A stretch of 29,468 bases of DNA, taken from IMG/VR virus record IMGVR_UViG_3300037117_000014, positions 1 through 29,468 of that record. The stretch is one strand, 5' to 3'. The notes under the pieces are model-generated. The model was given only the letters and a program-made list of their open reading frames with translations, was not told where the DNA came from and did not search any database. Position 1 is the first letter of the stretch; every line of letters starts with the position of its first letter. The translations under genes and the position numbers were made by a program. Source of the stretch: a virus. Shown in pieces: positions 1-21,092 of this stretch.

Positions 1-200
1 GGAACATCTGTGTAAATTCCGGGCGTTCCGCCCGCGCCGCCAGCATGGATCGCAACGCCGCCGATCATACCCTGAATTCCAGTCGTGGCCTGGAAACAAC
101 TTTCAGCTTCAGGTATTTGAACGGCCTGCGACCACGCAATTTTCGATTGCGAAATTAAGAGAGCGATAGCGCAAAGAGCTATTGCTTGTAGTTTCCGCAT
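1..200 (-). CDS. Exported phage fibre-like protein, 5' part only
   Basis: This open frame starts at an ATG (198-200) and runs off the left edge without a stop, giving 66 residues. It begins MRKLQAIALCAIALLIS, a basic n-region plus hydrophobic core typical of a Sec signal peptide, with likely cleavage near residues 24-26 (AWSQA). The mature part contains GGTPGIYTDVP, which resembles the start of glycine-rich beta repeats (GTYTNVPLTGG type) that I associate with phage fibre or adhesin-like proteins; this is recalled similarity, not a search. One cysteine is visible in the mature part. No clear Shine-Dalgarno site precedes it. It is divergent from the plus-strand gene at 217, so the 16-nt gap would have to hold both starts. 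The remainder of the gene is outside the window. Confidence 0.7.
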   Translation of the reverse strand, partial: MRKLQAIALCAIALLISQSKIAWSQAVQIPEAESCFQATTGIQGMIGGVAIHAGGAGGTPGIYTDV

Positions 201-216
201 ATGGTATCTGGTTTTC

Positions 217-867
217 ATGAGACGATATGACCCCATCAAGTGCGGCGACGTTTTCGGGCGTCTAACTGTTACAGACCTTATGCTCCCTAGAGCCAAGCTC
301 AATGGGAGAAATGTTTATCAAGTTATTGCCAAATGTGAATGCGGAACATCTTCCGCATTCAACGAGTTTAAGCTTAGAACTGGACATACTAGATCGTGTG
401 GTTGTCTTTCACGGGAACACGCTAAGAACAATCTGCCAAAAGGTCATGGTCACGCAAAACATGGCAATCTAAGCCCAACTTATGTGAGTTGGAAATCAAT
501 GATAGGTCGCTGTTATTATCCATGCGTAAACGGATTTAAGCTATATGGCGGAGCAGGAATAACGGTATGTGACAGATGGCGTAATAGTTTCGAAGCGTTC
601 CTAGAAGACATGGGGGAGCGCCCAAAAGGGATGACATTAGACAGGATCAAAAATGAACTAAATTATGCGCCCGACAATTGCCGGTGGGTGACTTGGCGAC
701 AACAAGAGGGCAATAGGCGCGATAACATATGGGTCATTGTCAATGGTGAGGCGATGATAACAGCTGAAGCAGCTCGCCGGTTTAACATGCCTGATTACGC
801 ATTCCGTCGCTTTTCTAAAAAAGTTGGCGGGTATCAAATCGCCGTGGACATTCTGGTTAGTCGTTAA
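217..867 (+). CDS. HNH-type homing endonuclease-like protein
   Basis: The 216-residue protein has the layout of free-standing phage HNH/AP2-style endonucleases. The N-terminal part has GDVFGRLTV and a four-cysteine zinc-binding module (C40, C42, C61, C63, the last two in RSCGC). A second part (about residues 88-160) has YVSWKSMIGRC, LYGGAGITVCDRW and LDRIKNELNYAPDNCRW, the signature of this nuclease family. Such genes usually spread by cutting cognate DNA lacking them. The gene is on the opposite strand to nearly everything else and is visibly AT-rich against a GC-rich background, so it was probably acquired. No strong Shine-Dalgarno site is visible. The classical HNH histidines are not all obvious, so catalytic activity is uncertain. 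Confidence 0.8.
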   Translation: MRRYDPIKCGDVFGRLTVTDLMLPRAKLNGRNVYQVIAKCECGTSSAFNEFKLRTGHTRSCGCLSREHAKNNLPKGHGHAKHGNLSPTYVSWKSMIGRCYYPCVNGFKLYGGAGITVCDRWRNSFEAFLEDMGERPKGMTLDRIKNELNYAPDNCRWVTWRQQEGNRRDNIWVIVNGEAMITAEAARRFNMPDYAFRRFSKKVGGYQIAVDILVSR

Positions 868-885
868 CAACTGGAGTTGGCTATC

Positions 886-1167
886 ATGATTAGTTTTGTA
901 ATTTCAACAATTCTTTGGGCAATAGGACTAACACTGTTGCTAGAACTTATAACGATCATTATAGTATTTTTAGCGTGGATTTGCTACGTTTTAGAGCAAT
1001 TCTGGAAACTTGACTGGTTTCTAGGACCGACAACGCCTGATCATAAACCTATCTTGCCAGAGCATTCACCCGCTGTTGATTTAGAGGAACGCCCTGACGA
1101 ACGAGAGCATTGGACACTCCCGCAGTTGGAGTTGTGGATAGCGGAGCGGCTCGCAAGCTACGATTGA
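886..1167 (+). CDS. Small membrane protein, unknown function
   Basis: This 93-residue protein starts at ATG 886, preceded by GGAG at 873-876; the upstream in-frame TTG at 877 sits too close to that site. Residues 2-46 are strongly hydrophobic (one long or two short membrane spans, with a glutamate in the middle), followed by a charged cytoplasmic-type tail ending IAERLASYD. It follows the HNH-type gene by 18 nt and shares its AT-rich composition, so the two form one cassette. Its last 119 nt overlap the 3' end of the convergent ejection-protein gene, in a stretch that returns to the GC-rich phage composition. A role in lysis or membrane modification is possible but nothing in the sequence establishes it. 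Confidence 0.55.
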   Translation: MISFVISTILWAIGLTLLLELITIIIVFLAWICYVLEQFWKLDWFLGPTTPDHKPILPEHSPAVDLEERPDEREHWTLPQLELWIAERLASYD

Positions 1168-3334
1168 GAAGCTGATTCGCCATCCAATTCGACCGCAAAG
1201 CGCTACCCATCCCGCGCCCTAGGCCGGCGACGCCGACTCCCGTCGCAAGCCCGGTAAGCAGCGCCGGGTTGTGAAACACATCCGGGTTAGCGAGATAGCT
1301 TGCAACGCCTCCAGCGCCCGCGCCGCCTGACAGAGCGTTATAGACAAGGCTCCGTTCAGCAGTTCCGCTGCTCGGCGGTTCCTTTAAGAACTTCTGCCCG
1401 ATGCGTGCGATTTCTCCAAGATCGCCACCACGTCCGAACGCCATTCCGTTGCCAGTTTGGCGATTGACGGCACCGGCGAGCAACGAAGAGCTTATGTCCC
1501 CTGTGGGAGCTTTAGCGACAAGCGGCTGAATAGTTTTGAGCGACGCCCATTGGCGCTTAGCCGTAGTGAGCAAATCCTGCATCTCGGGAGGCGCGGAACG
1601 CGACAGGGCTTCATCCAATGCCGATTTGATCTTGTTGGCGTAGAAACTCACATTTGAGTTTTCGCTGTCCGTCAATTTGTCAAGTGGAGAATTGGTCTTC
1701 GTAAGCGCTTGATATTGCGCGCCAGAAATCTTACCTGTGTTTCTGTCAACTTTATCCAAGATGTTTTGAACATTATGGATAAGCGGCTCATATTCTCCTT
1801 TGGAGATAACGAGACCCGCTTCATTCAACGCGGCATGAATATCGGTCATCAAGGCGGCGTCGGCGTTCAAGTCCGTCGAATTCGCGACCGTATCAAAGTA
1901 ACCGCCGATGCGCAGCCGAGCGGTGTTCATGACCTTCGGTGTCAACTTTTCCGCATCTTCGCCGATTGTCTTCGCCACGTTCCGATTGACGCCGGCTTGA
2001 ATAGCGGCGGTGTCCGCCCCCGCGCCAGAAAACGGCAATTTATTGAGCGCGGAACTTGTGAAGCGCACGCCCGGCGATTCCGACATTTGGCCGGTGTTTA
2101 CCGGAATACCCATCGCTCTGGCCCTTTCGGCAAGTTGCGCGGTTTCTTCTGGTAGTGTTCCAATCGTCGCATTGCCGACTCCTCGACCGAATGCCGCGAC
2201 ACCCTGACCGATAAGAGGTGCCGCTGCCCCAAGTCCGCCGCCCCACAGCGCGCTATTTTTAACATCTTCGGCATTGCCGCCACGGGCCGCGACATCGGCT
2301 GCTGATAGCCCCGCGCCAGTTCCGCCACTTAGCGCGGCAGCGGCGAGCGGGTTCGCGACACCGACACCAAATGCGGCGGGAGCGGCGACCATGCCCGCGC
2401 TTGTGCCGAGCAGGCTGCCAGCAATGTTCGATGCGGCGGTTGTTTTCGGGTATTCCTGCGCGCTGGCGTTCGTCACATCCTGGAAGCCCGCTAGGCTCGG
2501 CTCATATGGCGCTCCGCCCATGAGCGCATTCGCCGCCGCCGCGCCGTGCTGCACTCCAGACACAAGCGAAGGGCCGACAACCGGAACGCCGCTCAAGACG
2601 CCAGTCGTCGCTGCTAGAGCCTGTGACGTCGGCTGTTGCGCGAAGGGCTTTCCGGCGATGACGAGCTCATTCGTCTTTGGATCTCTGCCGCCATCAGGTC
2701 CCCACCGCAAGCCCATGTCGCCGACGGCACCGGTCGTGTTCGGTTGGCTCCCTTGTGTTGCAGCTTTTGGCCCTGCCCACAATGCATCGATTTCCTGGTC
2801 GGCGAGCGTCTTATCAGCGGTTCTCGGTCCACCCCATGACGCGCTGATTTCGTCATCGCTCAAGGGTGTTTGCTTGCCGCCAAAGAACAAATGTCCGCCA
2901 ATCTGCTGCCCGGTTCCGTCATCCCATTTGGGGGGTGCGCGGCCGAGTGCCTTTTGCGCGACAGGGGCATAAAACTGTGTAGCCCCGTTCGTGGGGTCGG
3001 AGATCTTGCCGGAGATAACACCGTCGACGATCTTCGCCGCGCTTTTATATGCCGGGTCCGCCGGCTTATAACTCATCAATTCCTGTTGGCGCGATGCCCA
3101 GGGCTCGAACTGGTCAGGCGCCAGAACCGTGTCGGTTGCCGACGCCTTATTTTGGCGCATTCTGTTCGCGATGACATGCGCGACGCCGGGTGCGCTCGGA
3201 TCACCATTCGCTTCGCCGATGACCGTCCGAACCCACATATCCCGATCGGCAGGCGAAACCGTAGGAAGTGCCGAAGCCGTTCCCGCATCGGAAGGAGCGT
3301 CCAGATATGAAAGCGTGCCCGCGCCGCTAGCCAT
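1049..3334 (-). CDS. Ejection protein with N-terminal SleB-type cell-wall hydrolase domain
   Basis: The 761-residue protein is the last of the ejection-protein cluster and fills the position of P22 gp16. Residues about 31-151 match the SleB/Hydrolase_2 family (RTVIGEANGDP, VAHVIANRM, NGATQFYAP), with E41 as the probable catalytic glutamate of a lytic transglycosylase. The middle (about residues 295-400) is a long Ala/Gly-rich hydrophobic stretch, as in internal virion proteins that insert into membrane. The C-terminal half is helical and soluble. Such proteins leave the capsid with the DNA, open the peptidoglycan and form part of the channel across the envelope. It starts 3 nt after the stop of the upstream gene. 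Its 3' end overlaps the plus-strand membrane-protein gene, so the last ~40 residues may differ from the ancestral end. Confidence 0.8.
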   Translation of the reverse strand: MASGAGTLSYLDAPSDAGTASALPTVSPADRDMWVRTVIGEANGDPSAPGVAHVIANRMRQNKASATDTVLAPDQFEPWASRQQELMSYKPADPAYKSAAKIVDGVISGKISDPTNGATQFYAPVAQKALGRAPPKWDDGTGQQIGGHLFFGGKQTPLSDDEISASWGGPRTADKTLADQEIDALWAGPKAATQGSQPNTTGAVGDMGLRWGPDGGRDPKTNELVIAGKPFAQQPTSQALAATTGVLSGVPVVGPSLVSGVQHGAAAANALMGGAPYEPSLAGFQDVTNASAQEYPKTTAASNIAGSLLGTSAGMVAAPAAFGVGVANPLAAAALSGGTGAGLSAADVAARGGNAEDVKNSALWGGGLGAAAPLIGQGVAAFGRGVGNATIGTLPEETAQLAERARAMGIPVNTGQMSESPGVRFTSSALNKLPFSGAGADTAAIQAGVNRNVAKTIGEDAEKLTPKVMNTARLRIGGYFDTVANSTDLNADAALMTDIHAALNEAGLVISKGEYEPLIHNVQNILDKVDRNTGKISGAQYQALTKTNSPLDKLTDSENSNVSFYANKIKSALDEALSRSAPPEMQDLLTTAKRQWASLKTIQPLVAKAPTGDISSSLLAGAVNRQTGNGMAFGRGGDLGEIARIGQKFLKEPPSSGTAERSLVYNALSGGAGAGGVASYLANPDVFHNPALLTGLATGVGVAGLGRGMGSALRSNWMANQLLNRSLRAAPLSTTPTAGVSNALVRQGVPLNQQRVNALAR

Positions 3335-3337
3335 TAG

Positions 3338-5139: not shown

Positions 5140-5140
5140 T

Positions 5141-5854: not shown

Positions 5855-6606
5855 TTGATGACCTTGAATGTTTGGCCGTCGAGGAATTGGAGGACGGCGG
5901 TTCCAAGGCTGATAACGAGCGGGTTTCGGGCGATCAGCGACATCGAGGCGGTCGGGCCGAGACCAGCGAACCGAGCAAAACGATTATAGAGCACGACACC
6001 CTTTTCTGGTTGGCCCGCGTAAATCATTTCGATCGCCGAGCCGATATGAAGCGCGTTCGCGGGCTCAATCGCGATGTCGTCGCATTCGGCCCCGTGCCGC
6101 CGCGCTTCTTTTTTGAGGTTGCCAAAGAAGTCCGATCCCGTGACCGCTAACTCTCGGGTTTTCTTAACCCAATCGCTGTAATGCAAAGCCAAAAACGACA
6201 TATCGACAAGACCGTCTTTCGTCGGCCAGACCTCTTTGCGGTCGAACTGTTTGGTCGCGCCGAGACCCTCGCAAAATCTCTCGACTTCCTTCGAGCATGC
6301 TGGAATTCTCGTCAGCACGGTCATGCAATCGGTATTGACGAACATCCAATGAAGCGCCTCGACGTTCACGCCAAACGCATGCTTCCCGCGATGGCCTTCC
6401 AGAAAATGTGCGTGCGCATCATAAATTCCAGGCTCAACCCAAAGAAAGATAACGCCACCGCCTTCCGCCATGATGAGGACGTTGCGCGGATCGGCAACGA
6501 TTTGCGTCACGTCAATTCGCTCAATCCCCGGCGTTTCGATACGCGCGAAAACCTCCGGGTCGTTGATGATCGCATTGATTTCGTCGGCGTCGAACGAGCG
6601 CCTTAT
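5845..6606 (-). CDS. gp14-like/GNAT-fold head assembly protein
   Basis: The conserved sequence starts around RRSFDADEINAIINDPEV and continues with VLIMAEGGGVIFLWV, GIYDAHAHFLEGHRGKHA and NVEALHWMFVNTD, which has the look of a GNAT acyltransferase fold. Similar proteins sit next to gp7 in P22-like phages (gp14/DUF2824 type, from memory). The C-terminal half (NALHIGSAIEMIYAG onward) looks like a separate domain. The frame is open up to 6891, but that would overlap the upstream gene by 289 nt. No ATG, GTG or TTG lies near the junction. An ATA codon at 6606 overlaps the upstream TAA as ATAA, mirroring the ATGA couplings elsewhere. The next conventional start is GTG at 6510, which would cut the conserved N-terminus. 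The start is therefore uncertain. Confidence 0.65.
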   Translation of the reverse strand: MRRSFDADEINAIINDPEVFARIETPGIERIDVTQIVADPRNVLIMAEGGGVIFLWVEPGIYDAHAHFLEGHRGKHAFGVNVEALHWMFVNTDCMTVLTRIPACSKEVERFCEGLGATKQFDRKEVWPTKDGLVDMSFLALHYSDWVKKTRELAVTGSDFFGNLKKEARRHGAECDDIAIEPANALHIGSAIEMIYAGQPEKGVVLYNRFARFAGLGPTASMSLIARNPLVISLGTAVLQFLDGQTFKVIKWA

Positions 6607-7424
6607 CTTCGGCGCCGCGCCCCGAGAAACCCGTAGGCGCTCAATGTCGAAACTAAGAACGTCACATTCGCGCTCAGATAAACCGTTGTCGGGGCCGCCA
6701 GCGACAGCCGCATTGACGGAATTCCCAGCACTTGAGGCAGGCCCGCCGGAATCGGTAGCGTCAGCATCGCATAACCCCCGTTGTTCGGGGGCGTCGGGTT
6801 TGTGGCTGATACCGTGTTGAGCCACGCCAATATCGCGCTTTGCGTGGTTGTTCCTGCCGGTGCGACCGCGAGATTTCCCCATACGTCCCAATCTCCCGGC
6901 GACAAGACTATTGTCGCGATGTCTTTTGATACGCCGCTTGCGAGGGCGACGGATGAGCTCGAGGGAACTTCATCGAAGATGAATTCTCCGATGTTGCCGG
7001 CTATCGCATCATCGTTCGTCGCGGTTCCTGGATATTGACCGCTGATCGATGAGAAATCCGAGGCTTGCAACGGTCTGAATGTTGGATACGCCGCCGCTCC
7101 GCTCGCCGGTCCGGCGAAAACCAAATTCACATTTTGCGCCGGGAAATTTTGCCCTGTCAAAAGTCCCCAATCCGGGAACTCGACGCCCATCTGCATGACT
7201 GAATATTGTGGCCCCGGATCGAGGCCAACCCATTCAATCGAATTTTGATACAGCGTCGCGCCGGCATTGGATGAAATGCCGTTTAAGACGATACCCGGCG
7301 AGCCGTTCGCGCCGCCCGTCCGGTTCCAAAGGTTGATGAAAAACGAGAACCAAGGGCCGGTCGGAGCGCCGTTTTTGTCGACGAGAGGCGGCCCAGGGAC
7401 GCCTTGCTGAAAGGAATTCGCCAT
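6603..7424 (-). CDS. Tail protein with C-terminal beta knob (needle/fibre position)
   Basis: The 273-residue protein starts MANSFQQGVPGPPLVDKNG and has the N-terminal PWFSFFINLWNRTGG segment common in small podophage tail proteins. The last ~110 residues (WDVWGNLAVAPAGTTTQS ... RLSLAAPTTVYLSANVTF ... LSAYGFLGARRRR) look like a beta-sandwich knob often found at the ends of phage fibres. The gene lies between gp10-like and gp14-like genes, where P22 encodes its tail needle gp26. It may plug the tail or bind the host surface; sequence alone cannot choose. Its ATG overlaps the previous stop (TAATG). Confidence 0.65.
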   Translation of the reverse strand: MANSFQQGVPGPPLVDKNGAPTGPWFSFFINLWNRTGGANGSPGIVLNGISSNAGATLYQNSIEWVGLDPGPQYSVMQMGVEFPDWGLLTGQNFPAQNVNLVFAGPASGAAAYPTFRPLQASDFSSISGQYPGTATNDDAIAGNIGEFIFDEVPSSSSVALASGVSKDIATIVLSPGDWDVWGNLAVAPAGTTTQSAILAWLNTVSATNPTPPNNGGYAMLTLPIPAGLPQVLGIPSMRLSLAAPTTVYLSANVTFLVSTLSAYGFLGARRRR

Positions 7425-8917
7425 TACGCGCTATGCTCGACGACATCCACGTAAGCCCCCTGGAGGGCAGATGAACCCGCATAAGACCACATGAGCTCAA
7501 AGACGAGATCGCGGCCCATTCCGAGCCCGCGCCAGCGCATCATCGATCGGTATTTCCCGCTGCTGGCGAATTGTTTGGGCCGATAGTTGCCAAAAGACGC
7601 GCCGCCGTTCTTCGAGCAGCGCATAAACACCGTCGGCGGCCCGCCGAGAGCCGTCGCCTGATCGCCCACGCCGGTTATGCCACCAGTCTCGAAATCCGCC
7701 ACGAAGGCCGCTGGCGTCAATTCGTTCAGGCTTTTCAGCACATGCGGGAAGCTGCGGCGAAAAACGATCGGTTTGCCGTTGTCGGTGTAGAACTGCTCGT
7801 CAAGCGCGTAAATCTGGCCGGTCGCATGGTCTTGGGCGACTATCGTCTTCGGGTATCCCCCTGAAGGATCGACCGCTGCATAAAAAGACGATCTAGCTCT
7901 ATGCGCGATTCCGTTATGGTCGGTCCACGTCCATCGAAACCACTGTTTTGTGGCGAGATCGTAGACCCAAGTTTTATCAGCGCCGGGGAAATGGAACAAA
8001 ATGAACGTATGGCCGCCTTGCTGAAACGTCCCGCCGATGCAATCCGAGACGGTTTGATAAGTGGACCATTCATATTCTAGGCCACGATTTGAAATCGCGA
8101 CGACGCCATAACCATTCGTTTTGACGGCTATCGCCGCGCCTTGGTCATTCTGCGAAATCCAAAATAGATCGACATCGGCGCGAACGAGGCTGTAAACCGC
8201 CGCGCATCCATATTGGATAAAGACGTTTGGCCATTCCTGATAGGGGAAAGGCGAGTTGCCCGCGTTGTACCAGACCTCGGAATTTTTCGTTCCGAGCAGC
8301 CAGACCTGCCGAATGCTGCAGGCAAAAGTCTGGATAGGGTCGGGCGACGAGTCTTTGTTGGCTTGGGCCAATGCGTTGAACACGACCTGATCATTGAGCG
8401 ACACGTACCACATATTCGTGCCGGGGGCGTTGAAAATCAGGAACGTGTCGGCATAGTCAACCCGCGTCGAGCCGATGAAAAGGCCGGTCGGATCGACCAA
8501 AGGCGCGAACACAATTCCGTTGCTGGCCAGCGTAATCGTATAGCCATTCGGCGAGCCGTCGACCAATACACCTGTTATGCCGTTATCCGACATCGAAACA
8601 GGCGTTTGCAGATTGGTGATCGGGCCTAACAGGTTCCAAACCCAATTCGGATCGATGTAGTAAAGCGCCGCGCCGACGACGCCGAACAGCGCGCCATTCG
8701 ACAACGTGAACAAACCGCGCCCCGTTCCCGGAACTGGCGGCGCGGAAAGCGGGCGCTCGCCGGCTCTCGGGTAGTGGGAGACCGCGACGTCAGGATCAGT
8801 CTCTTCCGGGTTGATTTCTGGGAAGATATTCTCCGAAATCTGGAAATTGCCAATCTTCGACCGCGCAGAATAGGCGCCTGAATTGAGCGGGATAAGATTC
8901 GGGCTACGGCTGGCCAT
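7424..8917 (-). CDS. Packaged DNA stabilisation protein, P22 gp10-like (tail hub)
   Basis: This 497-residue protein has the features of the P22 gp10 family, the tail hub that closes the portal after packaging. These include the N-terminal LIPLNSGAYSARSKIGNFQISEN, GERPLSAPPVPGTGRGLFTLSNG, and a series of beta segments with aromatic turns (VWLLGTKNSEVWYNAGN, FILFHFPGADKTWVYDLATKQWF). Length is close to gp10 (about 470). It lies downstream of the gp4-like gene as in P22. The start overlaps the small upstream gene by 14 nt. Confidence 0.85.
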   Translation of the reverse strand: MASRSPNLIPLNSGAYSARSKIGNFQISENIFPEINPEETDPDVAVSHYPRAGERPLSAPPVPGTGRGLFTLSNGALFGVVGAALYYIDPNWVWNLLGPITNLQTPVSMSDNGITGVLVDGSPNGYTITLASNGIVFAPLVDPTGLFIGSTRVDYADTFLIFNAPGTNMWYVSLNDQVVFNALAQANKDSSPDPIQTFACSIRQVWLLGTKNSEVWYNAGNSPFPYQEWPNVFIQYGCAAVYSLVRADVDLFWISQNDQGAAIAVKTNGYGVVAISNRGLEYEWSTYQTVSDCIGGTFQQGGHTFILFHFPGADKTWVYDLATKQWFRWTWTDHNGIAHRARSSFYAAVDPSGGYPKTIVAQDHATGQIYALDEQFYTDNGKPIVFRRSFPHVLKSLNELTPAAFVADFETGGITGVGDQATALGGPPTVFMRCSKNGGASFGNYRPKQFASSGKYRSMMRWRGLGMGRDLVFELMWSYAGSSALQGAYVDVVEHSA

Positions 8918-9110
8918 TTAGCACTTCGTCCGCTGGCAAAGGGGGATACCATAGCACTTGCGCGCGTCGGCGCTCCGCAAGAGCTAGCACATCTTCCTTG
9001 CTCGCCAAGGCGATTGAAGGGCGAACCGGCGCGTCGGGCGGGTAGTTGCTCAAGCGAAACTCGCCCGTGCGCGCGTTATGCCAGCCGAACAAGGTTCGCT
9101 TGGCCCTCAC
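8904..9110 (-). CDS. Small structural-module protein, unknown
   Basis: The gene encodes 68 residues, starting at GTG 9110, which overlaps the upstream TGA as GTGA. The longer frame upstream (to 9305) is only a shadow of the exported-protein gene. The sequence (AKRTLFGWHNARTGEF, PVRPSIALASKEDVLALAERR) is charged and soluble. It is translationally coupled to both neighbours, so it is probably a small tail-completion or assembly factor. No family was recognised. Confidence 0.6.
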   Translation of the reverse strand: MRAKRTLFGWHNARTGEFRLSNYPPDAPVRPSIALASKEDVLALAERRRAQVLWYPPLPADEVLNGQP

Positions 9111-9580
9111 TTGACGATCCACACGCCATTCTTGGCGCACCAGAACGTGTCGGCCGCATAGGTGGTGATCGTGGTGCTCGTCGCCTGCGAACCGACAAGA
9201 ATCACGTCCTGCGCACTTGTTATTGGGTTGTTGGCGATGCTCGGGTAAACGGTGATCGTGTTCGCGGTGTTGTTGCCGAGGATCAGCGAAGACCCCTGCA
9301 AACAAGACGGAAGCGCGACGCCGAGGCCAGTCGATACCGTGGACGTGTCGACTTCTTCAAGGAAGATGCCGGCGGAAAGCTGCGTCGAAGTGGCCTGAGT
9401 GGTTCCAGCCGCCGAGATACCCGACTTATAAGTCCAGTTAAAGCCTTGAACGATGCCTAACAGCCATTTACCCTCGGGAAGTTCGAAGCCCAATTGAGGT
9501 GCTAAGCCTTGGGCAGCAAAAGCGGGGAGCGGGGTCGCCAGCGCGAGGGCCAGCACGAGGGAAGCGATTTTCTTGCGCAT
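9107..9580 (-). CDS. Exported two-cysteine protein with phage beta domain
   Basis: The 157-residue protein starts at ATG 9580 behind AAGGA; an upstream in-frame start at 9628 would hide the signal peptide. MRKKIASLVLALALATPLPAFA is a textbook Sec signal with AxA cleavage after residue 22. The mature part has exactly two cysteines (PSCLQG and FWCAKNG), set in beta-type sequence (SLILGNNTANTITVYPS) of the sort seen in phage surface/tail proteins. It sits between gp4-like and gp10-like genes, where one expects cytoplasmically assembled virion parts, so a signal peptide is surprising. It resembles the layout of the exported protein at 18822-19169. Possible roles include a periplasmic factor, superinfection exclusion or receptor masking; none is shown. 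Confidence 0.75.
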   Translation of the reverse strand: MRKKIASLVLALALATPLPAFAAQGLAPQLGFELPEGKWLLGIVQGFNWTYKSGISAAGTTQATSTQLSAGIFLEEVDTSTVSTGLGVALPSCLQGSSLILGNNTANTITVYPSIANNPITSAQDVILVGSQATSTTITTYAADTFWCAKNGVWIVK

Positions 9581-9617: not shown

Positions 9618-10547
9618 TTAGGAGCCATCCCCGCGGTAATCGTAAGCGCGCTGATTTCTGCGAAGAAACGGCGGCATTCTGAGTGTAGACATGGCTTGGT
9701 TGCCGAGCCTTATTGTGTTCAGGCCGTTGCGCGCGAGGCCGTCGATCGCCGGATCGGCCGGCATTTGATAGCTAGCGCGAAGCCGGCGCGCTCCGGCCCA
9801 ATTGAGGGCCATCTCGTACTCCGGCGGGAAGTTGATTTTCTGTTGCAACGATTGGAAGCGCGGCAACACGCACTTGAACCCCACGTGAATTTCATAAATC
9901 GTCGCTTGCGGGACCGGCCAAGGCCGTAATAGCCCGATCGGCCAGGCCGGATCGTAGAAAATCTTCCAGGCCAGCGTGCCGATGTTTTTAACCGTGATCC
10001 GCGAATAGTCTTCGTGCGACGGGATTATTTCGAGCTGGATGTCAACAAAAAACGGCCCTTGCGAGACGGCAACCGCGCCCGGGTTTCCGCCTCCAGGGTT
10101 CCCTCCACCGGTGCCACCACCGCTCTGGCCGCCGTTCCAATCCGCGCTCCAATCACGCGCATTGAAGTCCCCACCGCCGCCACCGCCACCTCCGCCTCCG
10201 GCCGGCGCGTTCCCCCCTGGATACTGGCCCGTGTTGTTGTTCAAAAACCGGAGAAACGCATATTCGAGACGATCCGGGCGCGGGTTGATATTGACCGTCT
10301 GAGCAAGCCCGACCGTATAGGCTCTTTGGCCCGTGCAGACGAAATGATAATCCTGGATTCTATAGACGAGCCAGCGCTTGCGCGCCCATTCGTCGATGAT
10401 CCAATTAACCTGCCGGAAAGCCCTGTTCAGGATCGCTGGCTCTATCGCTTCGTCGATGCCAACGATACCGGCGTCGACAAGCATGTTCGTTATCAAATCT
10501 TGAACACTGTCGATCGTCAGCGCCGGTTCGTTGGGGGCTTGAATCAT
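9618..10547 (-). CDS. Head-tail adaptor, P22 gp4-like tail accessory factor with Gly-rich insert
   Basis: The N-terminal ~105 residues (TIDSVQDLITNMLVDAGIV, AILNRAFRQVNWIIDEWARKRW, YTVGLAQTVNINPRPDRLEYAF) match the helical gp4 tail-accessory family, which binds under the portal after packaging. The C-terminal part (PPEYEMALNWAGARRLRASYQ, DGLARNGLNTIRLGN) also fits. P22 gp4 is about 166 residues and this is 309. The extra length includes a glycine-rich stretch at residues 111-157 with ten consecutive glycines at 117-126, followed by a beta segment (FFVDIQLEIIPS). It lies upstream of the gp10-like gene as in P22. Confidence 0.8.
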   Translation of the reverse strand: MIQAPNEPALTIDSVQDLITNMLVDAGIVGIDEAIEPAILNRAFRQVNWIIDEWARKRWLVYRIQDYHFVCTGQRAYTVGLAQTVNINPRPDRLEYAFLRFLNNNTGQYPGGNAPAGGGGGGGGGGDFNARDWSADWNGGQSGGGTGGGNPGGGNPGAVAVSQGPFFVDIQLEIIPSHEDYSRITVKNIGTLAWKIFYDPAWPIGLLRPWPVPQATIYEIHVGFKCVLPRFQSLQQKINFPPEYEMALNWAGARRLRASYQMPADPAIDGLARNGLNTIRLGNQAMSTLRMPPFLRRNQRAYDYRGDGS

Positions 10548-10550
10548 AGG

Positions 10551-11827: not shown

Positions 11828-11843
11828 TTGAGGTTCCTCCAAA

Positions 11844-11896: not shown

Positions 11897-11916
11897 ATGC
11901 ATCAGTCATTGATTTA

Positions 11917-13176
11917 TCATGGTGTGCTATCAGCGCACTGCACGATCCATTCCGGTCTTGGAGTGCCCGAACCGAACAAGATATCCAATCTATCAATCGG
12001 TTGGTCGGTGCTAGGTTCGTAGACGACCAAACTTCGCATGCTCAACTGATCATACTCATGCCGGGCCGCATCGATGACGCCCCGACCCGAGGGCGGAATC
12101 CACAGCGGCGCGACGACCAGGGTAATCGCGTCGGGCGCATAGGCGAGGTTTTCGCGATAGGTCGTCGAGGCGTTGGCGAACGGCGTGATAACCGCGTTGG
12201 CCGCCGGGCTGGCGGTCACGGTCATATATTGCTGCGGGGTGTAGGGCAGGCCGGCGTAGGGGACGGCGCTGGCCGGCGGGATGATCGGCGGATAGATCGA
12301 AATCGAAGTCGCGCCATTCTGCGCCGGATACGTCACAACGAACTGAGACGGCGTGCCGAGCGACTGATAGTTGACGCGGTTGACGGCGTTGACACCGGGA
12401 ATCGTGATAACGTCGCCCGCGTTCAGCGTTCCCGCCAAGGCATTGACGAGCAGCACGTTGCCCGTCTGGCCCGCGCCGTTCACCGTCGCCGTCACCAGCG
12501 AGCCCGTGGTGTGAGACACAACCGACTGGTCCTCGAACCAGCGGAATTGAAGCGCCTCATACATCATGCCCGTATTGTACTGACGGGAAATCGCTTCCAC
12601 GGGGTTGAGCAGGCCGCGCAAGGCAAGCTGAACGCGAGTGTCGGAGCGCGGCGCGAGGACAACCTTGCGGATACCCATTTCGCCGAAGTTAGGAGCCGAA
12701 TTCTCCTCCAGGATGGCGCGCGCCAAGGCGAAAGGCGAATCCGTCACGGGAAGGATGTTGTTGTTCGCGTCCACGTTGGCAACGATATTACGCACGGTTG
12801 GAGCGGTGTTCGCCATGACCTGAATGGCCACGTTCCCCGCCAGCGCGTTCACGCGAGGAAGGACGATGCGCTCCATGTAGTCGTCAATATCGAGCGTGGT
12901 TTCCGCCGAAGTGAAAGCAACGTCGACATGGCGCTGCGTCGCGACAGTAAGCAGAAATTGCTGCTCCGTCGTGTCCTGGATCGCAATGCCGGGGCCGTCA
13001 GTAACCGTATACTGATTGGCGTAACGGATGCGGAGTTGCGCGCCGATACGAGCACCTTCGTTGCCGAATTGAGACTCGAATTGTCTTGACACGTTTTGTA
13101 AAAAGTAATTTGTATTCAAAAACATGCGAATCGAGTAACGCGTGATCATAGAGGGGGTCAAGATGTTGTTGCTCAT
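11917..13176 (-). CDS. Major capsid protein, P22 coat (gp5)-like
   Basis: The 419-residue protein matches the P22 coat family along its length. Matching segments are SMITRYSIRMFLNTNYFLQNVSRQFE, FGNEGARIGAQLRIR, YTVTDGPGIAIQDTTEQQF, VATQRHVDVAFTSAETTLDIDDY and ERIVLPRVNALAGNVA (quoted as separate short motifs). P22 gp5 is about 430 residues with an HK97 fold plus an insertion domain; the region about 230-310 here is the likely insertion. It follows the scaffold gene, as in P22. The start ATG 13176 has a good AGGAG Shine-Dalgarno, which lies in a potentially inhibitory structure. A single cysteine near the end contrasts with the exported proteins. Confidence 0.92.
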   Translation of the reverse strand: MSNNILTPSMITRYSIRMFLNTNYFLQNVSRQFESQFGNEGARIGAQLRIRYANQYTVTDGPGIAIQDTTEQQFLLTVATQRHVDVAFTSAETTLDIDDYMERIVLPRVNALAGNVAIQVMANTAPTVRNIVANVDANNNILPVTDSPFALARAILEENSAPNFGEMGIRKVVLAPRSDTRVQLALRGLLNPVEAISRQYNTGMMYEALQFRWFEDQSVVSHTTGSLVTATVNGAGQTGNVLLVNALAGTLNAGDVITIPGVNAVNRVNYQSLGTPSQFVVTYPAQNGATSISIYPPIIPPASAVPYAGLPYTPQQYMTVTASPAANAVITPFANASTTYRENLAYAPDAITLVVAPLWIPPSGRGVIDAARHEYDQLSMRSLVVYEPSTDQPIDRLDILFGSGTPRPEWIVQCADSTP

Positions 13177-14196: not shown

Positions 14197-14203
14197 ATAA
14201 TCC

Positions 14204-14659: not shown

Positions 14660-14823
14660 TTCTTGCCCTTCCGCGACGCTTTGTGGCCCTCGGAATAGCC
14701 GATCGCCAGCGCTTGCGCCTTGGATTTGACCTCCGGGCCTTTCTTGGATCCGCTATGGAGCTCTCCCTTGGAATATTCGCGCATGACCTTGCCAACCTTA
14801 GCTTCGACCTTGGCCTTGCTCAT
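14656..14823 (-). CDS. Tiny basic protein, DUF6496-like
   Basis: A 55-residue frame starts at ATG 14823 and ends at TGA 14656, coupled on both sides by ATGA overlaps. The sequence has KVGKVMREYSKGELHSGSKKG followed by a KAQALAIGYSEGHK segment (given as separate motifs). That combination (VMxEFxxGxLxSGSKKGPxVxxxxQAxAIAxSE) is what I recall for the DUF6496 family, common as tiny phage genes with no known function. It is strongly lysine-rich and may bind DNA or a virion surface. Confidence 0.7.
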   Translation of the reverse strand: MSKAKVEAKVGKVMREYSKGELHSGSKKGPEVKSKAQALAIGYSEGHKASRKGKK

Positions 14824-14969
14824 TTGCGCTTTCCTCGAAGAGCCTTGTCCTTATCGAACTTTGGCTCTTTGCCTTCGCCGCTGTTCTTCCCGTCGCCTTT
14901 CTTGGCGCCAGTCTTGAGCGGACCCGAGGACGAAGCGGACATGGCATTGCCGGATTTCTTGCTGGCCAT
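14820..14969 (-). CDS. Tiny lysine-rich protein
   Basis: A 49-residue frame starts at ATG 14969, overlapping the portal stop as TAATG, and ends at TGA overlapping the next ATG. It is almost entirely Lys, Gly, Ser and charged residues (SKKSGNAMSASSSGPLKTGA, then GEGKEPKFDKDKALRGKRK). It has no hydrophobic core, so it is probably disordered. The perfect coupling at both ends is the main support for translation. Confidence 0.55.
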   Translation of the reverse strand: MASKKSGNAMSASSSGPLKTGAKKGDGKNSGEGKEPKFDKDKALRGKRK

Positions 14970-17164
14970 TAAGAGCCTTCACTTTCAGTATTGGCCGCGC
15001 CCTGCTGCGACAACTCGGCCGCATTGGCCTGCGAAACAGTATCATACACAAAATCGTGCGATTTCAACTCGATTTCGTGCTCCATCTGCGCCCGCTGTTG
15101 CGGCGTGAGAGTAAGGCGGGCCAGCGCTTCGATCATGACCTTCATGCGCTCGGTGTCGGCCTTCTGCGCATTCACGTCCCGCTGTTCGTCTTTACCCTTC
15201 AGCGCAATCTCTTTCAGAGACAGCTTTTGCATTAGCTCGGCGTTAAGCGCCGTAAGCCTCTGCGTTTGCTGCTGGAGCGAAACGATTTGCGGCTCCATCT
15301 TCTCGTCGAACAGGTATGGCTTGTTCGCCTTGATCTCTTTTTGCAAGCGCTCCATAATCTTGTCGGCGCCGGGGAAATCGCCATACTTAAACAGCAAATC
15401 CCCAATAACGCCCGCAAGTTCCATGTTCTCTTTCAGGATCATGGACATAGCGTCCCATGCTTCCTGCCGCTGCGTCGCATAGTCGGGACCAGGATCGGAC
15501 ACGCACTCGAATTCACCAAGCGACGGGTTAAACGAAAGCCGAATAGCTTCTTCGTCATCCTTAGAGTATTGCTCGTCTTGAACCGCGGCGGCTTGCGTCG
15601 GGTCGATATTGATCCAAAACTTCTCGCCGTCTTCGCCGATCACATGCAAAGCGCGCTTGGTGTCGTAAATCTTGGGATAGAGGTCGAGCAGCGCCATGCC
15701 GATCGCTCGAAGCATGTCGGCTTGATGCTCGGGGAAGTGATAGGTCGCCGTATCGCCCTGTTGCTTACGCTCGCCGATCGCTACACCGCTCGCCGCCGAT
15801 TGCGTGTCGTTTTCGCCCATTTGGGCTTGAAACTGGCCAGAAATCATCATCATTTGGCGTTCGGCGTTCTGCATCGCTTGCATATACGCCGGGTTTCCCT
15901 TCGGCGGGTCTATCCGCTGCGGAGGTTGGACTTGCTGCATACCCTCCGGGGCTTCCTCGTCAAGGTCGTTATAGAACAGCACGCCGTAGTTATTGATATT
16001 GGCGTCTTTCCACTGCTCTTGGCCTTCGGTCGCGCGCGCCGGCGCCAACCATGGGGCTTTAGGCTGCAACGCATTGACTTGGACATCGGTTGACGCGGCG
16101 TAATTCAGCATGCGCTGCGGGTCGATCAGCGGCCGAGTGTGGCCCTTGCGGTCCAACCGATTGTCAATGACGATCTCGCGGCCTGGGCAGCGAAAGATCG
16201 GGATATATTTCCCCGCCCATTTGCCTTTGTCGACGACAATGTTGCCAGCGATCAGGAACCATTCAACCTCGTTGTCCGTCACCTTGCGCATGCGTCCGTC
16301 GACGCGGCCCGCTTTGATGTCTGCGACAAGCGCCTTGAACAAATCCTTACCAGCTTCGTCTTTGATTTCAGAGGCCAGCTTTTCAATCTCTTCGCCGTCT
16401 TCCTCTGGCTTGTAAGAGACCAGCGTGTCCTTCCGCTCTTTCTTGCGGAAGTATTTGGCCACCATAATTTCTTTGTCCGTGATCCAATCTGCGAACATTG
16501 AATCCAGCGGAGCCTTACCGACTTTCCCGACATAATCCGGGTATTTTCGGTTGAATTCCTTGATTGGCAGGCGATCGAAAACGAAGCCAAAATTGGCATC
16601 TAGGCCGTCTTGCTGCTTAATCCACGGGTCGAGATAGACGCCAGTCGGATCCCGCGCGGCCTTGAGCCAAATATCCTGATCGAACGAGCGTTCGGACACG
16701 TAGTCCGTTTCGAGCAGAATGTAGCCTATGCCGCCGTCAACTTGATGCTCCGCCACCTTGCGATATTGCGTCGTGGCGCGGGAGATTGTCTCAGTTCTCC
16801 GGATCAGCGTTTGCATCATTCCCGCTGATTTGTAGCTCGCCTTTCCCCCGCTCGGCCGAACCTTGATCGCGAAGCGATTCTTCGACATGGAATTGATAAT
16901 CATGTCGTTATGCGTTCTGGTGTTATTGATCGTCAGGCAAGGCAAATCCTGGCCAGGTGATGTCCGATCATCATAGGTTCGCTCTGGCCACTGCCAAGCG
17001 TTGCGCGTGTCGCCATTGGCGAACTTGATGTCTTCACGGCAGCGCTGATCTTCGACACCTTGCCAATCTTGACACGCCTTCCACCGGTCGACAGCCTCGC
17101 GGACAACCTCTTCGTCGGTTCGCGCCGGCTTGGCGTCATCGAGCATGGTGACGGGAGAGACCAT
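14969..17164 (-). CDS. Portal protein, P22 gp1-like
   Basis: The 731-residue protein starts at ATG 17164, which overlaps the terL stop as TAATG; an upstream in-frame TTG (17179) is less likely. P22 gp1 is 725 residues. The P22-type portal features include CLTINNTRTHNDMIINSMSKNR, HQVDGGIGYILLETDY, DPTGVYLDPW, DWITDKEIMVAKYFRKKER, and ATYHFPEHQADMLRAIGMALLDLYP. The C-terminal ~130 residues form a long helical, Gln-rich segment (IVSLQQQTQRLTALNAELMQK), matching the barrel of P22 portal. It forms the dodecameric DNA entry vertex and docks terminase. Confidence 0.92.
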   Translation of the reverse strand: MVSPVTMLDDAKPARTDEEVVREAVDRWKACQDWQGVEDQRCREDIKFANGDTRNAWQWPERTYDDRTSPGQDLPCLTINNTRTHNDMIINSMSKNRFAIKVRPSGGKASYKSAGMMQTLIRRTETISRATTQYRKVAEHQVDGGIGYILLETDYVSERSFDQDIWLKAARDPTGVYLDPWIKQQDGLDANFGFVFDRLPIKEFNRKYPDYVGKVGKAPLDSMFADWITDKEIMVAKYFRKKERKDTLVSYKPEEDGEEIEKLASEIKDEAGKDLFKALVADIKAGRVDGRMRKVTDNEVEWFLIAGNIVVDKGKWAGKYIPIFRCPGREIVIDNRLDRKGHTRPLIDPQRMLNYAASTDVQVNALQPKAPWLAPARATEGQEQWKDANINNYGVLFYNDLDEEAPEGMQQVQPPQRIDPPKGNPAYMQAMQNAERQMMMISGQFQAQMGENDTQSAASGVAIGERKQQGDTATYHFPEHQADMLRAIGMALLDLYPKIYDTKRALHVIGEDGEKFWINIDPTQAAAVQDEQYSKDDEEAIRLSFNPSLGEFECVSDPGPDYATQRQEAWDAMSMILKENMELAGVIGDLLFKYGDFPGADKIMERLQKEIKANKPYLFDEKMEPQIVSLQQQTQRLTALNAELMQKLSLKEIALKGKDEQRDVNAQKADTERMKVMIEALARLTLTPQQRAQMEHEIELKSHDFVYDTVSQANAAELSQQGAANTESEGS

Positions 17165-18825
17165 TAACGGCTCATCCAACCGGTTCCGCGATTAGCCCCG
17201 CGATCTGGCGCGGAAATTTTTGGCAAATTCCCAGCTAGCCCGCGTTCGTGAGCCTTAATCGCCGCGATGATGGCTTTATTCCCTTCCGACCAAGCCATTA
17301 TCACGGCGTCTCCCCTATCCGGCGAACGCCCCAAGCGCTCCGGCTTTTTAAGATCTTCTTTGCTTTCGATTTGAATGCCTCGGCTGGCCATTTTCCAACG
17401 AGGAGCAGTCAAATCAGCAGCCATTTGCGGGTCTGGCGGGAGAGCGATCGTCGCGCCGCCAGACTGGTCCGGGTCTAGCGCCTCGCGGAACCGCCAATGT
17501 GCTTCAGCCCGCTTATTCACGAATGGAAGCTGCTTGTCTTTCGTTCGCATGCCGGATTCACCGGCGCCGTTGAACGGATGCACGCGAATGTCATTCTCGA
17601 CAAGGCGCTCTCTTACGCCTCCGCCATAACCGCCGCCCATGTCGACGACAACCGCCGCGCTGTTTCTCCGATGCTTGACTACCAGTGCCGCGACGTCGGA
17701 AGGATTTGGCGTCCTAATCCCCGGCTCTTGAATGAGCGGGGCGTACCAGTGCCCATAACGCGGGGCCAAGACCGTATCGTCTCCGCCGCCTTGCGCCACG
17801 TCGACGCCAATCGCGGACATTACCGTTCCACCTGGTGGTTTTTCTGTCCATCGCTGCTGAGCAGCCTTCACCCACGCGCTTGGGATGACTTGCCATTCGT
17901 GATCTTGGCGCCCGGCAAGAAAGTCCCCATGCAGCATTTGAGAACGGAGCGGCTCAGGGAGTGCCTGCAACTGCGCCCGATACCCTGTCTCGCGGAGGTA
18001 GGGGTTATCCTCTAGTTTGCCCGGAATAAACGTTCGCGTCATTGGGCGCGTTATTTCGACACCTAACTCGCGAGCTCTCTCCGGGGTAAAAGTGATCTCT
18101 TCCTTGGTCGCGATGCGATAGTCGCGCCCGTCCACGAAAACGATTGGCGCGCTATTATCGAGCCAAACCGTAGTTCCTTCGATGTCCGGGGCGGTCGCCG
18201 CCCATCGAAGTTCGCCCGAGCACGCCTGATTAGCGAACTGAGGATCGAGCCAAGGCGCGAACCACTCCATAAGCCATTCGCCGTCGCCGCCTGTCGGGGG
18301 GTTGGAGGCGATGACAACGCGGCGGCGCTGCTTCGGATCGGCGGAGCGCAACCAGCCCATAACAAATTGAACTTTGGCTCTCGAAAGCTGGGCACCTTCA
18401 TCGAACCCGATGAAATCATGCGGCCGGCCCTGCCATGACTTTTCCGATCCGGGGTTACTCAAATGGCCTAATTCAATGATCCTATCAAGGCGGCGCAAAA
18501 TGCTGTCCTGACCGTTCCACCCGTCGCGTCCGCAAACCTCTAACAAATACTCCTCGACGCCGCGAAGGTCGACAGATTTAGACCGAAATATCACAGTGCG
18601 ATAATGGCATGTCGCGGCGAGACCAACCAAGAGCGAGGTCTTACCGGAGCCTGCAGCGCCGCCATAAAGCAGCAAATCAGCTTGCGAGTAATACGCGGCG
18701 ACTTGTGGCCTATTGCGGAAGTCCGGCAACCAAAGCGCCGTCAGTTCCGGCAAAAGCATCTTGTCGAGGTCGGCCTTGGCTTGCGGACTCAAACCCTCGA
18801 CATAGGCTCTAACGTCTCGGATCAT
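17164..18825 (-). CDS. terL: Terminase large subunit (packaging ATPase and nuclease)
   Basis: The 553-residue protein has the ATPase and nuclease signatures of TerL. The Walker A motif is GGAAGSGKTS (residues 55-64), Walker B with catalytic Glu is IGFDE (139-143), and the coupling motif is VIASNPPT (171-178). The RNase H-like nuclease aspartates are D342 (IGVDVAQGGGDDT), D395 (VVVDMGGGYG) and D503/D506 (RSPDRGDAVIM). It drives DNA into the prohead through the portal and cuts concatemers. The start overlaps the previous gene by ATGA with no clear Shine-Dalgarno, so translation is probably coupled. Unusually, it is about 2.7 kb away from the small subunit gene. Confidence 0.95.
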   Translation of the reverse strand: MIRDVRAYVEGLSPQAKADLDKMLLPELTALWLPDFRNRPQVAAYYSQADLLLYGGAAGSGKTSLLVGLAATCHYRTVIFRSKSVDLRGVEEYLLEVCGRDGWNGQDSILRRLDRIIELGHLSNPGSEKSWQGRPHDFIGFDEGAQLSRAKVQFVMGWLRSADPKQRRRVVIASNPPTGGDGEWLMEWFAPWLDPQFANQACSGELRWAATAPDIEGTTVWLDNSAPIVFVDGRDYRIATKEEITFTPERARELGVEITRPMTRTFIPGKLEDNPYLRETGYRAQLQALPEPLRSQMLHGDFLAGRQDHEWQVIPSAWVKAAQQRWTEKPPGGTVMSAIGVDVAQGGGDDTVLAPRYGHWYAPLIQEPGIRTPNPSDVAALVVKHRRNSAAVVVDMGGGYGGGVRERLVENDIRVHPFNGAGESGMRTKDKQLPFVNKRAEAHWRFREALDPDQSGGATIALPPDPQMAADLTAPRWKMASRGIQIESKEDLKKPERLGRSPDRGDAVIMAWSEGNKAIIAAIKAHERGLAGNLPKISAPDRGANRGTGWMSR

Positions 18826-19169
18826 TCGGACGAGGCGGCAAAGGCCTGCGTCGCCGTCCCTGTTATCTCAATCAGCGAGACAATCGTGTACATCGAATTG
18901 TTGCAATAGAACAAGGCGTAAGGCAGTAAAATGAAAATCGTGGTTCCGTTCACACGCACGTTCATGTTGGCCGCGCCCTGATTCTGGATGTCGCAACCGA
19001 CGCGATTGGTGTTCGCTGGGAACACGGTCTGATAGACGCCAGTGCTTGCGATCGTGCCGGAGACGTCGCCGCTGTTGCGCGGGTTAGCCTGAAGCACGCC
19101 CATTCCATCGGCGAAAGCCAACGAAGGAGCGAGGAACGCGAGCGCGCCCGCTAAGATAAGTTTGCGCAT
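18822..19169 (-). CDS. Small exported two-cysteine protein
   Basis: The 115-residue protein begins MRKLILAGALAFLAPSLAFA, a clear Sec signal with AFA cleavage after residue 20. The mature ~95 residues carry exactly two cysteines (NRVGCDIQNQ and LFYCNNS) and a beta segment NQGAANMNVRVNG. The xxxRxxCxIQNQG pattern resembles a small beta domain widespread in phage structural proteins (ARKGLxIQNQS type). The start has AAGGGGA upstream. It is coupled to terL by ATGA. Exported and disulfide-capable proteins are not expected in a packaging operon; function unknown. Confidence 0.75.
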   Translation of the reverse strand: MRKLILAGALAFLAPSLAFADGMGVLQANPRNSGDVSGTIASTGVYQTVFPANTNRVGCDIQNQGAANMNVRVNGTTIFILLPYALFYCNNSMYTIVSLIEITGTATQAFAASSE

Positions 19170-19190
19170 TGTCGCGTTCCCCTTGCCGAA

Positions 19191-19379
19191 TTACTTCTTT
19201 TTTCCGCCCGTGCCGTTCAGCGGCACAGGAACGAGCCCGGGCTTGGTCGGCTTGGTACCGCCCGGGTCTTTGCTGCCGCGCGGAGGCAGCGGATCATGAG
19301 CTCCATCTCCGCCACCGCCATTGAACTGAGTCGAAAACCCGCCCACGATAGGCTTGGTGTCGCCGATTGAACTTCCCAT
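19191..19379 (-). CDS. Small Gly/Pro-rich protein
   Basis: A 62-residue frame begins at ATG 19379 (MGSSIGDTKPIVGGF), 4 nt after the upstream stop. The longer frame to 19433 only runs back into its neighbour. It has GGGGDG and a Pro/Lys/Gly-rich tail ending GTGGKKK and looks disordered. Its place in a tight operon supports it; no function can be assigned. Confidence 0.5.
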   Translation of the reverse strand: MGSSIGDTKPIVGGFSTQFNGGGGDGAHDPLPPRGSKDPGGTKPTKPGLVPVPLNGTGGKKK

Positions 19380-19383
19380 TTTC

Positions 19384-19584
19384 TTATCCCTTCTCTTCCG
19401 CATGCGCCGGTTCGACTTGGCACATGACCGCATGTTCGAATTTATATTCTGGAACGCCGTTTACGTCAGTTCCCGAACGAATGGCGCGGGTTAACACGAC
19501 CCGCATTCGCAGCCGAGAACCATCGGCAAGCTGATAGGCGTTCCACGCTTCATGCTCTATGGCGTAGTCGACCGCCTCGCTCAC
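19384..19584 (-). CDS. Small protein, unknown
   Basis: A 66-residue protein starts at GTG 19584, overlapping the previous TGA as GTGA. The longer frame (to 19680) is antiparallel reading inside its neighbour. The sequence DYAIEHEAWNAYQLADGSRL, RMRVVLTRAIRSGTD and EYKFEHAVMCQVE suggests a compact alpha/beta protein of the small-barrel type, as seen in many phage and host hypothetical proteins. Function unknown. Confidence 0.6.
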   Translation of the reverse strand: MSEAVDYAIEHEAWNAYQLADGSRLRMRVVLTRAIRSGTDVNGVPEYKFEHAVMCQVEPAHAEEKG

Positions 19585-21092
19585 GGCATAGCCGAAGCGG
19601 AGATAATGCCAGTCGAGCCCGAAGTGCCGAGCGACATCCACTCGTTCGCCGTTCCGGCAGCGCCAACCGACGCTGTGCAAAGCATCAGGAAGCCCGTGTT
19701 GTTAGAGAACGAAGCAAGAGAGGTCGACAGCGAGTTGGCCGTGCAAGCGCTCACGCTCGTCTCTGCGACCTGTGCGAATGCCTGGAAGCCCGCCGTGAAC
19801 TGGAGAGCCGGGGCAATACGCATCGCAACCGGATAAGCGACAACGCAGTTCGCCGTCGTGGTCGCGACATTCTCGCACGAGCCATTGGCCGTGAGCCCAA
19901 GGGTTTGCTGCTCGTAGTTATAATAGAGGTAGGAATAATCGAGCATCGCTTCCAACGCGGGATAGCGGCGTTCGAAGGCCTTGGGCGAGACGATGCCGTT
20001 GGGGAGCGCTGTCGTGATGACGGCGGAAGCCGGCTCAAGCTGCAAGCCCTGAACCTCGAACCAATCGGTCGTGACCGACGTGGTTGCGGTAAAGAGCCCA
20101 CAAATCTGAACGCTGACATTGGTGACGGCCGTCGTGGTTCCCGGCACATTGACGGGGATCGGCGCCGCGATCGAATAGCGGCCCCATGTCGCCGAGACCG
20201 GAATGGAAACGACGCCCGTGGTCGCGACCGTTCCGACAGTAGCCGGCGAAAGAACCGGCGTCGCGACCGTGTAATTGGTCGGGCCGCCCGCCTGGCCAGA
20301 GCCCGCGAGCGCGAACTTCGAACCATTGCCGCCGGCATAACCCATTCCAGCCTGCGTGCCGACCGCATCCGCCGCCGACGAATAGGCAATCTGCGCCGTC
20401 AACACGCCGCCCACCGGAGAGAATGTAGCGCCGGTCAGAGCATAAAACGAGAAGACGGCATTGTTGCCAATCAGCGGAGACGCGGCGTTCACGTCGAGCG
20501 TCTGGCCGATACAGGTTGCGCCGGACGGCGTAGCTGCGGACGGGCGCGCGACGCGCAACGCCTTGGTCGTGTTCAATGCGGGAAGAACTTCAGTCGTCCC
20601 GCTTGGAATAGTGAAGGTCGCCGTCGAACCCGTCGAATAAGCCCACCATCCATCTGAAGTGATAATGGCGGGAGCGATGGTCGCGCCAGCAAGCGCTGCG
20701 ATACCCTTGGTCGTGGATAGGCGCTGCGCGAGGCTCGTGTTCAAGTCACCGCCGATAAGGCGGTTCGTCGACTGCCCAAGCAAGCCGGATGGAACAACCG
20801 CCGACTGAACAGGCGTTCCCGTGTTGCCTGTGTTCAAGTCAAGCGGAATGAGCTCGGAGCCGGTTAGAGCGGCCGGACCCGCCGGAACAAGCGTCTGGCA
20901 GATATAACCGATAGCGCCCTGGCCCTGGCCGGTGATTCCACCGAGATTGCCCGTTCCCGTGACGATGGAGGCGCAAAAGGCAGGCCCGCCGATGACGGAC
21001 CACGTAGACCACATACCCGCGCCCATGACGGCGACGGGAATCGCCAGCGCCGCGAAGGCGGCGGCGAGCCCGATCTTATGCTTCAGTTTCAT
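19581..21092 (-). CDS. Large exported beta-rich surface/fibre-like protein with eight cysteines
   Basis: The 503-residue protein starts at ATG 21092 behind GAGGT; the upstream in-frame GTG (21104) contains that site. Residues 1-25 (MKLKHKIGLAAAFAALAIPVAVMGA) form a Sec signal peptide. The mature part is Thr/Ser/Gly/Ala-rich, beta-type, and contains a carbohydrate-binding-like middle (SATWGRYSIAAPIPVNVPG, WFEVQGLQLEPAS). It then has FERRYPALEAMLDYSYLYYNYE, a motif I associate with phage fibre and appendage proteins just before the C-terminal domain. There are eight cysteines, an even number. It lies between terS and terL, outside the usual tail-fibre location. An export signal on a fibre-like protein is odd: it may be displayed on or released from the infected cell. 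Confidence 0.75.
   Translation of the reverse strand: MKLKHKIGLAAAFAALAIPVAVMGAGMWSTWSVIGGPAFCASIVTGTGNLGGITGQGQGAIGYICQTLVPAGPAALTGSELIPLDLNTGNTGTPVQSAVVPSGLLGQSTNRLIGGDLNTSLAQRLSTTKGIAALAGATIAPAIITSDGWWAYSTGSTATFTIPSGTTEVLPALNTTKALRVARPSAATPSGATCIGQTLDVNAASPLIGNNAVFSFYALTGATFSPVGGVLTAQIAYSSAADAVGTQAGMGYAGGNGSKFALAGSGQAGGPTNYTVATPVLSPATVGTVATTGVVSIPVSATWGRYSIAAPIPVNVPGTTTAVTNVSVQICGLFTATTSVTTDWFEVQGLQLEPASAVITTALPNGIVSPKAFERRYPALEAMLDYSYLYYNYEQQTLGLTANGSCENVATTTANCVVAYPVAMRIAPALQFTAGFQAFAQVAETSVSACTANSLSTSLASFSNNTGFLMLCTASVGAAGTANEWMSLGTSGSTGIISASAMP

Follow-up and report, generated by a model that had tools for sequence, protein, structure and literature searches.

We found that, across a clade of P22-type phages, export signals and paired cysteines are repeatedly associated with tailspike and tail-fibre proteins, an association that is well supported by the comparisons below. 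Export of these proteins, as read from their signal peptides, is likewise well supported. We think it rather probable that these phages export their tailspikes and fibres, disulfide-bond them in the periplasm and dock them at lysis. We are more tentative, and slightly inclined to doubt, that the virion as a whole is built in two compartments, with cytoplasmic heads and periplasmic disulfide-bonded receptor-binding appendages joined only at lysis.

Gene layout and host

The window, that is the whole stretch of DNA analysed, comprises 29,468 bases of linear viral contig from IMG/VR, with the late genes on the minus strand (Table 1). It is a P22-type podophage, with a P22-type portal, coat and gp10-type head closure all present. 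A relative of its coat at 84% identity was found in a Beijerinckiaceae MAG and another at 45% in a Devosia MAG. Because the coat relatives sit in those MAGs, the host is probably an alphaproteobacterium of the Beijerinckiaceae/Devosia kind, with binning errors in the MAGs being possible. No isolate belongs to the clade. Closest to it among isolates is Pseudomonas phage PAE2, with a coat at 46%, for which the survey gave no signal peptides.

Some further features of the DNA were seen in passing. The helicase/primase-like gene at 23441-26224 (-) seems to bear an intein-like insertion (SGCHSDDTEVLTTRGW ... NGRASVSGN), and the terL of the relative G003 (29969-32167) has an intein-bearing look too. 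An HNH-endonuclease-like ORF at 217-867 (+) adjoins the truncated tailspike gene on the opposite strand.

Table 1. Positions of the genes of the window discussed in the text
Position	Strand	Feature	Evidence
1..218	-	5' part of the gene for a predicted exported tailspike (P22 gp9 slot), truncated by the contig end	SP ~126-200, then IPEAESCFQATTGI
1049..3334	-	injection protein (gp16-like slot) bearing a cell-wall hydrolase domain; the tailspike gene follows directly downstream	PF07486, 1e-10
6603..7424	-	fibre-like protein, gp26 (needle) slot, without SP	phrog_11393 tail fiber, 4.6e-15
7424..8917	-	gp10-like head-closure protein (tail hub)	phrog_578, 2.9e-74
9107..9580	-	small predicted exported appendage protein between gp4-like and gp10-like genes	SP 9515-9580; mature part 9110-9514, 2 Cys
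9618..10547	-	gp4-like tail adaptor	position, and orthologues in the same place in relatives
11917..13176	-	P22-type coat, 1 Cys, no SP	PF11651, 4.8e-23
14969..17179	-	P22-type portal	PF16510, 1.9e-129
17164..18825	-	terminase large subunit	phrog_979, 5.3e-34
18822..19169	-	predicted exported 115-aa protein upstream of terL	SP 19110-19169; mature part 2 Cys
19581..21092	-	predicted exported tail-fibre homologue	SP 21021-21092; mature part 8 Cys

Four genes of the window carry Sec signal peptides

The initial annotation had proposed Sec signal peptides (SPs) for four genes. We recovered each of the four ORFs, and using a heuristic predictor (charged n-region, hydropathy of the h-region and the -3/-1 rule; not SignalP) we found SPs at the starts of exactly 4 of about 25 genes in the window. 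Among real genes only 1-200, 9107-9580, 18822-19169 and 19581-21092 passed; the one extra pass was a spurious ORF within the hydrolase gene. When the heuristic was calibrated on 42 E. coli K-12 proteins, 11 of 12 exported proteins passed at the cut-off, as did 1 of the 30 others, an inner-membrane protein. It misses some SPs, for example that of L045:16673-17956 (MIAFLLLLLLALPAEA), and the gene caller of the relative surveys is crude. A ribosome-binding-site-like sequence precedes all three complete SP genes, and the cleavage-like sites of the four SPs are AFA-A, AFA-D, AWS-Q and VMG-A (cut at the hyphen). The Cys counts of the three complete mature parts (2, 2 and 8) are even, as had been claimed, and the coat, with its single Cys, has no SP.

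Neither a lipobox nor a membrane anchor was seen in the four proteins, and for lack of a lipobox we rejected reading them as lipoproteins, including a superinfection-exclusion lipoprotein of the T5 Llp type. When their own N-termini were shuffled, 7-19% of the shuffles passed for the four SP genes and at most 3.3% (g5141) for the other genes, most of which gave none. What counters the idea of chance hydrophobic N-termini is conservation and the Cys data, not this shuffle count. The SP set is more than chance because the SPs recur at the same loci, are confined to one part of the coat tree and go with a strong bias in Cys parity. The SP and Cys observation is no artefact.

SPs recur at the same loci in relatives

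We surveyed related phages and found SPs at the equivalent loci; several relatives hold further SP-bearing genes in those places. Where coat identity was at least 75%, 48 of 658 late-strand genes had a called SP, versus 1 of 407 at 40-48%. On the coat tree all SP-bearing loci fall within a single half; support is weak for the division into halves and strong for the inner clades of 33 and 7 rows. Four families, namely the 9107 family, the tailspike head-binding domain, the L013/L093 fibre and the L016/L122 protein, hold homologues both with and without an SP, and the SP-less start coincides with the cleavage point of the SP-bearing form. These comparisons are compatible with gain or loss of the SP and do not prove a direction.

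Among the other SP-bearing proteins of the clade there are matches to families of tail fibre, tail collar, tailspike pectate lyase and head decoration proteins, and L094 has a pectate-lyase-like one. In G001 (39.8 kb) the sole large receptor-binding candidate found by inspection bears an SP, and the needle slot holds a 163-aa coil-like protein. Late-region genes of L016 (7639-8289, MNRRQFLKRASG) and L068 (16037-16567, MINRREIIKKSA) have twin-arginine-like signal sequences; Tat export may be in use in this clade as well.

SP-bearing proteins mostly have even numbers of cysteines

An even-Cys bias serves as a mark of disulfide-bonded exported proteins. The 71 non-redundant complete SP-bearing proteins comprise 61 with an even, non-zero number of Cys, 5 with an odd number and 5 with none, and the 488 SP-less proteins comprise 125, 179 and 184, respectively. 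Among Cys-containing proteins the count is thus even in 61 of 66 with an SP versus 125 of 304 without (Fisher p=1.7e-15, a guide, as the clusters are partly dependent). L091:2478-3641, a membrane protein, and L127:8706-9815, an Ala-rich artefact, look like false SP calls and were retained in the count. The term even-Cys bias appears in PMC7678975. The earlier view of a coordinated, exported, disulfide-capable set within the virion module is strongly supported.

The truncated gene is probably a tailspike gene

The start codon of the gene at the contig end is at 200, or at 218 in frame, and either gives an SP. The gene comes right after 1049-3334, as its counterparts in G001-G004 follow theirs, and it matches long SP-bearing proteins encoded directly after the hydrolase/injection gene in relatives, which is the gp9 slot of P22. 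It is homologous to a 609-aa SP-bearing protein of L038 (E=1e-10). Its full-length relatives carry the podoviral tailspike head-binding domain known from solved tailspikes; the SP-less form matches 7eeq (7e-8) and the Pan3 tail spike (1.7e-8), and the SP-bearing form matches 7eeq (2e-4; SP+ profile 1.6e-3). The domain opens with MATLLPxGKQxF in SP-less proteins versus TLLPPGKMC directly behind the SP in the others. Two of its positions are Cys in 5 of 5 complete SP-bearing proteins versus 0 of 10 SP-less ones (p=3.3e-4). The window gene is cut after the first strand of this domain, IPEAESCFQATTGI, so that the first of the two Cys is visible before the contig end.

Like P22 gp9-type podoviral tailspikes (head-binding domain as in 7eeq; cyanopodophage Pan3 tail complex, 9vyg/9vyh), those of the clade occupy the slot after the injection genes, have a homologous N-terminal head-binding domain and have modular C-terminal parts. 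Unlike them, they carry a Sec SP and two Cys in the head-binding domain, and 4 of 5 complete SP-bearing proteins have a Gly-rich insert of about 75 aa.

In PAE2 (OK041467, our L051) the deposited annotation gives no same-strand CDS to a 669-aa ORF (14864-16873) for a tailspike that has a head-binding domain and a beta-helix. By eye only, an acyltransferase-like membrane protein, possibly a surface-modifying gene, adjoins the exported tailspike of G001 (3151-4860, +), and G003 (42691-43599) and G004 (2960-4021) have a sulfotransferase-like part followed by an acetyltransferase-like part inserted among the injection-protein genes, also by eye.

The other SP-bearing proteins of the window

Searching the phage collection, Pfam and PHROGs with the sequences of 9107-9580 and 19581-21092 yielded no usable result, and their homology links came via relatives and fold. 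Relatives of 9107-9580 lie in the same place between the gp4-like and gp10-like genes, usually with an SP, and SP-less orthologues occupy this slot too. The AF2 model of 9107-9580 has a mature core with pLDDT of about 90-97, and in VIA-align it matched a phage tailspike domain with Z 11.4 (1.5 A over 83 residues), followed by a baseplate protein (9.5), TSP4 of CBA120 (8.7), T4 gp9 (7.7) and a capsid spike (7.7). As modelled, the mature protein folds like tailspike and baseplate domains. The predicted fold is common to T4 gp9/gp10, TSP4 of CBA120 and the Solidus tailspike domain; unlike these, proteins of the 9107-9580 type are small stand-alone exported proteins with an SP and usually one Cys pair. 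The family profile had no matches among PDB sequences.

Even Cys counts were found in 23 of 24 SP-bearing versus 0 of 4 SP-less members of this family (p=2.4e-4). Its paired Cys positions shift together, ~71/123 giving way to ~123/133 or ~53/75; in L090 the last two pairs occur together. SP state changes at least 3 times on the family tree, which does not supply enough independent pairs for a phylogenetic test. The SP-less members (L078, L038, L081 and L114) each begin at the cleavage point and are a natural control set for experiments.

We delimited the family of 19581-21092 by the N-terminal domain; its genes are located between terS and terL, and all complete members found bear an SP. In the family alignment the Cys-containing N-terminal domain (about residues 25-100) is conserved and the C-terminal fibre domain is variable. 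The protein is homologous to an SP-less protein of L093 (E=3e-17), which matches the tail fiber family phrog_4492 at 1.5e-34; the SP-bearing homologue in L013 does so at 1.1e-23. By itself the window protein has no PHROG match, and its AF2 model (pLDDT 40) was set aside. The orthologue of 18822-19169 in L031/L056 has an SP and 2 Cys at 79-82% identity. A common layout suggested initially for the two small proteins found no support in homology.

Proposed assembly of exported spikes and fibres

The SP set appears to consist mostly of virion appendages. Three ideas for it had been put forward. The best fit is with appendages added outside the cytoplasm, since these are homologues of tailspikes and fibres and retain virion-attachment domains; receptor masking and superinfection exclusion fit less well with late-operon genes whose products show no lipobox or membrane anchor. 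We propose that this clade has diverted its tailspikes and fibres through the periplasm: they carry Sec SPs where their SP-less homologues begin, together with cysteine pairs. The spikes and fibres would be translocated to the periplasm, where we infer that they are cleaved and disulfide-bonded, and would wait there during cytoplasmic assembly of heads, portals and tail hubs. Lysis would then mix the compartments, and the spikes and fibres would dock, through their retained attachment domains, onto the tail hub of DNA-filled heads.

P22 tailspikes bind finished heads in vitro. Incorporation of the exported proteins into virions is our reading of these data, and assembly at lysis would be the most likely consequence of the clade-wide association of export signals and paired cysteines with tailspikes and fibres. 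In favour of docking are the retention of the attachment domains and the SP on the one large receptor-binding candidate seen in G001. Counting against this explanation, P22 itself mounts its tailspikes without export, and the SP-less fibre at 6603-7424, by its sequence a cytoplasmic fibre and an internal contrast within the window, could be the main receptor binder. The likely advantages would be disulfide-hardened spikes and the keeping of receptor-binding or glycan-cleaving proteins out of the cytoplasm. A possible second role would be periplasmic trimming of nascent surface glycans.

The exported spikes might instead not be virion parts, and act in superinfection exclusion or receptor removal by masking receptors or trimming surface glycans at the periplasm or outer membrane. 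The tailspike-fold enzyme WceF of Pantoea, which has a Tat signal (PMC7949094), and the SP-bearing GH66 glucanase in the structural module of Acetobacter phage phiAX1 are precedents for it; we nevertheless hold it to be unlikely, as such a role has no need of the head-binding domain that the SP-bearing tailspikes retain, G001 has no visible large SP-less spike or fibre to serve the virion, and the four window proteins have no lipobox. A role as free enzymes or adhesins is less likely again; these would aid release or dispersal, for instance through breakdown of the exopolysaccharide that surrounds the lysing cell. The same phiAX1 protein and the pectate-lyase-like protein of L094 would suit this, but export also takes in small appendage domains with no enzymatic character, such as 9107-9580, and the head-binding domains are conserved.

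Tailed-phage virion proteins are normally assembled in the cytoplasm, and on that ground the hydrophobic N-termini could be virion-association segments of proteins that remain there. We regard this as very improbable given the Cys parity, the conserved cleavage sites and the SP-less homologues whose start matches the site of cleavage. Docking of exported appendages at lysis remains our preferred explanation.

Comparison with known systems

WceF of Pantoea stewartii (PMC7949094) is likewise a tailspike-like protein bearing an export signal, but it is a bacterial exopolysaccharide enzyme with a Tat signal and lies outside any phage late operon. The authors of that paper speculate that WceF might cut exopolysaccharide during periplasmic transfer. 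Phage phiAX1 (LC644973) shares the P22-like portal and coat and has two SP-bearing proteins between its gp4-like and gp10-like genes, one of which is a GH66 hydrolase (2.9e-84). It differs in being distant (coat 37%) and in that its SP-bearing proteins have no visible homology to 9107-9580. According to PMC8566455, phiAX1 is mitomycin-inducible and was rated incomplete by the prophage caller used there; mass spectrometry and SDS-PAGE had no match in the text of that paper. The deposited start of the GH66 protein (L052 26349-28274), at 26454, lies downstream of an in-frame SP-bearing start at 26349. Filamentous phage coat proteins are also virion proteins made with signal peptides; unlike the present phages, filamentous phages are extruded through the membrane and are not tailed with cytoplasmic heads.

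In the open-access papers searched, we came across no account of tailed phages exporting tail proteins through Sec. To our knowledge, the accepted view is that tailed phages make and mount their receptor-binding proteins in the cytoplasm. If true, an exporting clade would alter ideas on the order of tailed-phage assembly and would reveal a route to disulfide-stabilised spikes. It would also warn that annotation pipelines may label such spikes secreted hypothetical proteins.
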